A DNA stretch of 64,000 bases, from NCBI RefSeq assembly GCF_013294015.1, contig NZ_JABSNO010000004.1:47468-111467 (forward strand), written 5' to 3'. Within the stretch, counting starts at the first letter, position 1. Each line of letters opens with the position of its first letter. The DNA comes from Frigoriflavimonas asaccharolytica (GTDB taxonomy: Bacteria; Bacteroidota; Bacteroidia; Flavobacteriales; Weeksellaceae). Shown one piece after another: positions 7,855-17,684 of the stretch. A program made the translations under genes and the position numbers. The notes below the pieces were generated by a model, which was not told the DNA's origin, ran no database searches, and worked only from the letters and a program-made list of their open reading frames with translations.

Positions 7855-7874
7855 GCAACTTTTGTCACATCGTT

Positions 7875-8058
7875 TGTCATTCTGAAAGAATCTCAACGCA
7901 AAGACGTTTCCAGCGTGACAAACTGTGTGGTTATATACTGTTGCTATATCCGATTGACAAGCATTTTCGTCAATTTTTTTTGTCACATCCTTTTGTCATT
8001 CCGGAGGAATCTCTGCATTATTTTTTCACATCCTTTTGTCATTCTGAAACAATTTCAA
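7875..8058. repeat. TGTCATTC hairpin repeats, left cluster
   Basis: Three copies start TGTCATTC at 7875, 7994 and 8037. The first is full length: TGTCATTCTGAAAGAATCTC, then AACGCAAAGACGTTTCCAGC, then GTGACAAACTGTGTGG, with TGTCA and TGACA ends. The second and third form a pair that occurs again at 8444-8497. The third copy overlaps the 3' end of the GIY-YIG gene. This repeat type is widespread in Bacteroidetes intergenic DNA. Confidence 0.85.
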
Positions 8059-8362
8059 AATGCCCATTCAAGAATTGAAAATCAGGATTAAAATTTTTAA
8101 TTAATTCCAATTTCAATTCTCTTCGCAAATCTTTAATTTCTCTCTCTCTCTCAATAGCAAGTTGAATCCATCCAAAATGCTCGTAGTACACTAAAAATTC
8201 CACATTATAACGAGCCGTAAAACTTTTTGGATTCTTTTCTTCTCGATGTTCTTTCAACCTTCGCCTTATATCATTGGTAACACCAGTATATAAAACCGTT
8301 TTGTTTTTATTGGTTAAAATATAAACGTAAAAATCATAAATACCTTCTGTAAACTCAATCAT
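8039..8362 (-). CDS. GIY-YIG family endonuclease (single domain)
   Basis: The 107-residue protein is almost entirely one GIY-YIG nuclease domain. The signature strands read YVYILTNKN and LYTGVTN, so the second triad is YTG. The conserved basic helix DIRRRLKEH and a glutamate-containing helix (AIEREREI) follow. Members of this small UPF0213-like group occur in many copies in Bacteroidetes; their role is not settled. The gene stands alone between direct copies of a TGTCATTC repeat, and its last codons and stop lie inside one of them. A homing or repeat-linked role is inference; DNA repair or processing is the alternative. Confidence 0.85.
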   Translation of the reverse strand: MIEFTEGIYDFYVYILTNKNKTVLYTGVTNDIRRRLKEHREEKNPKSFTARYNVEFLVYYEHFGWIQLAIEREREIKDLRRELKLELIKNFNPDFQFLNGHFEIVSE

Positions 8363-8443
8363 AAAAGTATGTTTTCACGAAATTAACTAAATATGCGTGA
8401 AATAACAAGCATTTTTCAACTCTCTTCTTTTAAACACACTTTT

Positions 8444-8650
8444 TGTCATTCCGGTGGAATCTCTACATTATTTTTTCAAGTCCTTTTGTCATTCTGAAAG
8501 AATCTCAACGCAAAGACGCTTCCAGCGTGACAAACTGTGTGGTTGAATGTGTTTTGTCATGCGTATTTATTATTCAGTTTTTACGCATCATTTTGTCATT
8601 CTGAAAGAATCTCTATGCAAAGACGCTTCCAGCGTGACAAACTGTGTGTA
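8444..8650. repeat. TGTCATTC hairpin repeats, right cluster
   Basis: Copies start at 8444, 8487 and 8594. The pair at 8444-8497 repeats, in the same direction and with few changes, the pair at 7994-8047 on the other side of the GIY-YIG gene. The copies at 8487 and 8594 are full length and end in the same AGCGTGACAAACTGTGTG tail as the copy at 7875. The 342-bp stretch 8363-8704 holds no other gene. Confidence 0.85.
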
Positions 8651-17620: not shown

Positions 17621-17684
17621 TTGTCATTCCGTAGGAATCTCAACGCTTTATTTAAACGGACGCTAGATTCCTACGGAATGACAA
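17621..17684. repeat. TGTCATTCCG hairpin repeat with perfect 20-bp arms
   Basis: The arm TTGTCATTCCGTAGGAATCT (17621-17640) is the exact reverse complement of 17665-17684, around a 24-base centre. It belongs to the same TGTCATTC family as the copies around the GIY-YIG gene, but here the outer arms are complete on both sides. It lies in the 276-bp gap between the convergent dgkA and purL genes, where no gene is seen. Confidence 0.9.

Follow-up and report, generated by a model that had tools for sequence, protein, structure and literature searches.

What is a nuclease of 107 residues doing in the midst of a run of short palindromes, one of which provides its stop codon? The question is raised by a locus of Frigoriflavimonas asaccharolytica (family Weeksellaceae) that lies in the window, by which we mean the whole stretch of 64,000 nucleotides that was analysed (Table 1). 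A preliminary description of this DNA had placed a GIY-YIG nuclease gene there, between two direct copies of a 'hairpin-repeat pair'. The block at 7994-8047 does recur in the same orientation at 8444-8497, as part of 68-nt copies that are 91% identical, and the gene that separates them is indeed of the GIY-YIG type, with a PF01541 score of 61.3 bits for a curated cut-off of 22.6. A domain search finds nothing besides PF01541 in the product, and no HUH/Y1 transposase domain. The columns that are invariant among 11 aligned sequences include Y14, Y25-x-G27, R35, H39 and E73, which we take to be residues of the catalytic type in a putatively active enzyme. The 3′ end of the gene was correctly located within a repeat: the TGA stop (8039-8041) and the final residues, FEIVSE, of which that description gave FEIVS, are encoded by the copy at 8036-8056. 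Further copies flank the gene, as 71-nt imperfect dimers at 7874, 8486 and 8593 (the two that were folded are both weak, with a z of -0.8 for 7874-7921 alone), and the relative noticed at 17621 is paired with an inverted one at 17668. It is the wording 'hairpin-repeat pair' that has to be amended. The repeats are real, but they form a series of heads with a TGTC tag, most of which have a stem of 5 bp; the head that carries the stop codon is degenerate.

Table 1. Nuclease gene and palindromic repeats of the window (positions are those of the whole stretch).
Feature	Position	Strand	Basis or remark
GIY-YIG nuclease gene, 107 aa, class 2a	8039..8362	-	ORF, PF01541 E=1.1e-16
Bracketed segment, 450-bp period	7991..8508	.	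Direct 68-nt copies 7991-8058 / 8441-8508 around the gene
Imperfect REP dimer, head to head: TGTC-ATTCT-gaa-AGAAT and a second TGTC head, inverted and diverged	7874..7921	+	
REP head TGTC-ATTCC-gga-GGAAT-CTC	7993..8013	+	
Degenerate REP head with the nuclease stop and last codons	8036..8056	+	
REP head TGTC-ATTCC-ggt-GGAAT-CTC, direct copy of 7993-8013	8443..8463	+	
Head-to-head REP dimer, head ATTCT/AGAAT and inverted head with stem ACGCT/AGCGT	8486..8533	+	z -1.3
TGTC-tagged hairpin, different 7-bp stem ATGCGTA/TACGCAT	8555..8589	+	Sequence inspection
Head-to-head REP dimer, third copy of the 71-nt unit	8593..8640	+	
Solitary dimer (head to head) of this repeat family, distant from the gene	about 17621..17684	.	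Inverted copy at 17668

The typical unit of this family is a head, which consists of TGTC, a short stem beginning with AT, a loop, the complement of the stem and then CTC. Heads are often paired head to head. Lone heads occur too. Within the window, TTGTCATTCTGAAAGAA has 8 matches with up to 3 mismatches against 0.94 expected, and none of 100 shuffles reaches 8. The repeats are dispersed over the genome (3.43 Mb in 67 contigs): the 21-nt TTGTCATTCYGNNNGAATCTC, with 2 mismatches at most, matches 26 times where the reversed control has no match, and the variants in TCTGAAA are all found at the nuclease locus. Away from the gene, the solitary dimer of the window folds strongly as DNA (-21.3 kcal/mol, z -9.4). 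Such dimers are present in some relatives and absent in others at an orthologous site. At the solitary-dimer site L339, extracted from 17 of 20 loci, the dimer is plain in six (L339, L381-L384 and L386), several of the others are decayed or of another type, and at least four (L394, L396, L400 and L403) have none; at a second such site, L340, four sequences span the place, with both heads in three of them and one head in the fourth. Neither a target duplication nor an insertion boundary can be read at the solitary dimers, where the orthologous intergenic stretches are too diverged. As an observation apart, genome G181 (C1:1675500-1679500, L345) holds a tandem array of units of about 165 bp, each of them a TGTCATTCC head-to-head dimer; a GIY-YIG gene was not recognised by eye in 2 kb of these 4 kb.

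Palindromes of a similar make have been described. CGTC-tagged REPs were defined by Di Nocera et al. (2013; PMC3733652), who noted TGTC variants and head-to-head dimers. According to the retrieved passages of that paper their hosts include Bacteroidetes, some of them are equated with Neisseria dRS3 and Rickettsia RPE-4 and RPE-6, and they are not tied to transposase genes: they 'apparently lack a dedicated transposase'. The window repeats share with the elements of these passages the unpaired CGTC/TGTC tag (here TGTC), the AT-initial stem and the head-to-head dimers, seen at 17621-17684 and at many loci. They differ from them in the stem, which measures 8-9 bp in the published type, whereas the forward heads of the window have AT-initial stems of 5 bp, and one of 7, and in the tail, CCA there and CTC here. 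Several loci outside Bacteroidota resemble the described type, and CCA is found in several alpha-proteobacterial ones. The same passages present the REPtron, a RAYT gene with its GTAG REPs, and there too a gene is flanked by its own dispersed, often dimeric REPs; the difference is that a RAYT is an HUH/Y1 enzyme and the tag is GTAG, in place of GIY-YIG and [CT]GTC. Among the open-licence PMC matches listed, there is no paper tying GIY-YIG proteins to REPs: 'palindrom' and 'Bacteroid' have 0 occurrences in the retrieved text of the 2006 GIY-YIG survey (PMC1564403), the retrieved main text of RepRanger 2025 (PMC12306157) holds no transposase or nuclease words, and in the retrieved text of PMC9465073 GIY-YIG and a REP term are both present and unrelated. 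Among solved structures the profile matches two sequences only, UPF0213 1zg2 (BH0048) and 1ywl (EF2693), which are likewise single small GIY-YIG domains. They were deposited as hypothetical proteins, and a link to repeats was not found for them in the papers searched.

We think it probable that the window holds a 'REPtron'-like locus, where a stand-alone GIY-YIG nuclease is the cognate enzyme driving the copying of TGTC/CGTC REPs. The enzyme would recognise the GTC tag together with the palindromic stem of a dimer of facing heads, most likely folded into a hairpin or a cruciform. A nick or cut made there, at the tagged palindrome, would drive the copying of dimers into new intergenic sites, which we infer to be the origin of their dispersal. 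The nuclease gene, long resident at a few chromosomal sites, would be the master locus, as RAYT genes are for GTAG REPs. The orientation of the heads beside the window gene, mostly one way, counts against this explanation. The direct-repeat bracket is one local arrangement, and an inverted pair around the gene, or a full dimer on each side, is also common.

Elsewhere in the family, too, the gene and the repeats are mostly co-located. A PF01541 search was made of 59 Weeksellaceae genomes, that of the window included; regions around short reading frames were taken among the matches listed, and long PF01541 reading frames (UvrC-like and other fusions) were excluded. A short GIY-YIG gene is confirmed by the profile in 57 of these 58 loci, again among the matches listed, and the printed flanks of 20 loci away from tRNA genes place most genes amid inverted or direct repeats of the TGTC/GTC type. 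When arrays, loci near tRNA genes and loci near contig ends are taken out of the 57, 36 single loci remain. In 27 of them the sharing of repeats between left and right flanks exceeds the 99th percentile of control genes taken from the same loci; of the 374 controls themselves 7 do so, and of the 96 small ones 5. Genes like that of the window (class 2a, E<1e-40) number at least 53 in at least 51 of the 296 family genomes, about one copy per genome, and are common to a few sites, A to D; since scoring was limited to 16 candidates per genome, some may have been missed. Ten of the 53 genes found have internal stops. With up to 2 mismatches allowed, the core TGTCATTCCGNNGGAATC lies within 1.5 kb of the gene in 28 of the 30 best class-2a loci and on both sides in 23, and these counts become 23 and 19 of 25 when the five loci, window included, that were query seeds with flanks seen beforehand are left aside. 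In L150 and L151 the repeat is absent within 1.5 kb, while in L131, L147 and L152 the nearest one is more than 600 nt from the gene. At L095, L121 and L084 the starts or ends of reading frames are possibly read from a flanking repeat (as in MSFRRNLS... and MSFRGTRN...).

RAYT-type genes (PF01797, Y1_Tnp) were considered as mobilisers of the TGTC repeats and are disfavoured. None of 30 such loci, the best matches in 25 chosen genomes (24 of the 30 in genomes with at least 20 repeat copies), carries the class-2a repeat, which sets them apart from the GIY-YIG genes, and four genomes with 43-66 repeats (G279, G209, G316 and G149) have no PF01797 match. In the genome of the window, a RAYT-type gene (L222, C25:49200-49541 with its flanks) sits beside a different repeat array of its own, ATTGGGCGGCGCTTTGCTTACCCAATG.

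The association extends well beyond the family. A protein search of plasmid records gave 33 matches, of which 16 were chosen to span genera that include Neisseria, Azospirillum, Shinella, Rhizobium, Sphingobium, Spirosoma and Planktothrix. By eye, palindromes of the CGTC/TGTC type lie on both sides in 12 of these loci and clearly on one side in 4; at the S. meliloti plasmid locus the tag is CCTC. The repeats of L237, which we take to be dRS3 from the name used by Di Nocera et al. and from the dRS3 sequence, have longer stems than those of the window, and so do those flanking L239. Some neighbourhoods deserve mention in passing. In Azospirillum lipoferum (L239, from the annotation) and in Shinella sp. 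PSBB067 (L251, from the flanks) the GIY-YIG gene and its REPs apparently lie between sufB and sufC, and on a Planktothrix plasmid (L245) the gene and arrays of TGTCATTCTGAG lie between an MmeI-type restriction gene and the DISARM gene drmA.

Species genomes were also scanned by protein pattern, with no use of the flanks, and the best 80 of at least 580 confirmed relatives were kept, so that this set leans to the subfamily of the query; the alignment on which the scan was based drew in part on loci whose flanks were known beforehand. The 80 loci come from 16 named phyla, plus 7 unassigned. Within 300 nt of the gene, 71 of them have palindromes with a [CT]GTC tag and a stem of 5 bp, and 42 have them on both sides; nine have no tagged palindrome in this range. 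The earlier conjecture, that nuclease and repeats are partners in the manner of RAYTs and REPs, thus has strong support, and the partnership holds well outside Bacteroidetes. A 6-bp stem is too strict as a general definition (16 of the 80 matched), and the 5-bp stem was adopted after that result had been seen, with 18 other tags and a comparison with control genes as guards. Each of the other tags is found at 8-27 of the same 80 loci on any side and at 0-7 on both. Where flanks are complete, tagged palindromes accompany 67 of 74 loci against 38 of 176 control genes on any side, and 40 of 74 against 2 of 176 on both (1 of 53 for controls with non-coding flanks). Their density near the gene is 3.72 per kb, compared with 1.02 in distant intergenic DNA. 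Repeats are far commoner near GIY-YIG genes than near other genes, here as in the family, and this was one of the two points on which the preliminary description had hung its proposal.

Could it be that REPs simply gather in intergenic stretches where small nuclease genes also lie? Both are intergenic, and the tagged palindromes near 38 control genes point the same way. Such a coincidence is nevertheless highly improbable: the association is far weaker or absent at control genes, in other intergenic DNA, with other tags and at RAYT loci, and the repeats are specific to subclades. On balance we incline to see in stand-alone GIY-YIG nucleases the mobilising enzymes of CGTC/TGTC REPs across bacteria, a second system, evolutionarily independent of RAYT/REP, of which tRNA-associated arrays would be a further branch using the 3′ parts of tRNA genes instead of REPs.

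This specificity deserves closer attention. Within 300 nt, TGTCATTCCG is found exactly at 19 of 30 class-2a loci and at none of 9 Chryseobacterium 2b loci, while GTCATTGCGA is found at none of the former and at all nine of the latter; these named 2b loci come from another collection than the genomes of genus g21, presumably also Chryseobacterium, that are used below. The repeat dimers named for the 2a and 2b proteins are TGTCATTCC and GTCATTGCG. Paralogues in one genome have different repeats: G012 (L113 and L114) and G006 (L094 and L093) contain both types, each accompanied by a repeat of its own. On a tree of 128 proteins, 107 of them labelled by their stem (55 ATTGC), the stem type changes 26 times, against at least 40 times in each of 300 shuffles. 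Between phyla, stems are identical in 24%, 50%, 59% and 71% of pairs as protein identity goes from the 40s to the 70s percent, the pairs not being independent. The stems ATTCC, ATTGC, ATTCT and ATCCC form, together with matching nucleases, a natural series open to direct biochemistry.

Homing endonucleases of the I-TevI type, which are GIY-YIG enzymes, have genes that adjoin their presumed target. The main rival to a copy-driving nuclease follows this model: selfish genes of the homing type would land in REPs or in tRNA genes, the repeats would spread otherwise and the gene would be a lodger. We hold this to be unlikely, and a serious rival all the same because tRNA-linked arrays exist. The catalytic domain and the position by a presumed target are shared, there is a weak similarity, below the cut-off, to group I intron endonucleases, and the window gene with one repeat copy makes up the 450-bp period of a direct duplication. 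On the other hand, a GIY-YIG domain is all that was found in the window protein, and the sites that lack the gene are mostly free of repeats.

These sites are best seen where the gene is resident at places shared between genomes. At site A a class-2a gene lies behind the mevalonate diphosphate decarboxylase (MVD) gene, in genera g7, g9, g13 and g21. Site B, that of the window, lies between YgaP-like and Tll0287-like genes and is also occupied in G180 and G194 of genus g27. Two more shared sites are known for this class. Gene-free versions of site A were taken from 30 g21 genomes, 14 of them rich in the repeat and 16 of which say little because they hold no such repeat anywhere; no repeat lies within 800 nt behind MVD in 29 of the 30, and in 13 of the 14 repeat-rich ones. 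One gene-free site A (L179) has a lone repeat copy behind MVD, and another has one at a different place in the extracted region. In L155 the neighbours are adjacent where relatives have repeat, gene and repeat. Among 22 g27 loci at site B the gene is present in three (L185, L190 and, in two frames, L187). Two others of these loci, in a genus different from that of the window, have no nuclease at this site, with only 182 (L192) and 172 bp (L193) between the flanking genes, and L193 bears half of another repeat type. Finally, G268 has no gene and keeps repeats at what reads, by eye, as site A (L347), a possible footprint.

The empty sites that the preliminary description had sought do exist, at L192, L193 and behind MVD, but as they are mostly without repeats they do not demonstrate the entry of a gene into a pre-existing repeat pair; only L179, with its lone copy, and L347 approach the empty site with one repeat pair that had been imagined. 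Repeats without a gene at these two would fit homing. Against it speak the 13 repeat-rich genomes with no repeat at site A, the use of the same few sites in several genera at about one copy per genome, and the agreement of subclade and stem type even between phyla. RAYT genes likewise occur in few copies per genome and are retained by descent, as class-2a genes seem to be. Retention at shared sites and the strong fold of the solitary dimer would also suit a housekeeping nuclease that resolves REP hairpins or cruciforms and is held nearby by selection, without moving them. We find this improbable: the distribution is patchy (at least 51 of 296 family genomes have class 2a, and 10 of the 53 genes found have internal stops), and a repair role needs no adjacency to repeats.

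The number of repeats goes along with the presence of the nuclease, a correlation with clear exceptions. In genus g21 the median number of repeats is 34.5 (range 3-66) for the 34 genomes with class 2a and 5 for the 115 in which no 2a was detected, 26 of which have none, 40 at least 12 and one 79 (Mann-Whitney p=1e-10, ancestry being ignored and copies at the nuclease locus included). Repeats also occur in many genomes that are negative for 2a, and a strict one-to-one presence of the two was therefore rejected. In the eight g27 genomes that bear 2a the main repeat is matched only 0-8 times, and a variant repeat is found at L084. Homing would fit the correlation as well, since more repeats make more targets.

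The partnership of nuclease and repeat is well supported. A large class of bacterial repeats has been missing its partner enzyme, and the GIY-YIG nuclease is the best candidate for that role. The widespread CGTC-tagged REPs now have a specific, testable candidate enzyme of about 90-110 residues. If the nuclease does drive their copying, a function would be found for a widespread family with two solved relatives deposited as hypothetical, and short palindromes would have a second, non-HUH route for spreading.

In other GIY-YIG subfamilies the gene follows immediately upon a tRNA gene, often in tandem units that include a copy of the tRNA 3′ part, and it is here that homing finds a further argument. 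Among the matches listed, 15 of 57 short GIY-YIG loci have the gene directly behind a tRNA gene of the same strand, a count that leaves out L099, which lies behind a tRNA-like remnant. In the genome of the window (C13:15040-16400, L036:4005-5413), tandem units of about 340-410 bp follow directly behind an intact tRNA gene, and tandem tRNA-linked units are also seen at L119, L120, L081, L074, L101, L085 and L111. Each unit comprises a GIY-YIG reading frame and the 3′ part of a tRNA, in which a short palindrome, for example TCCGCC-GGCGGA or CCCGAT-ATCGGG, takes the place of the anticodon arm and sometimes of the T arm as well.
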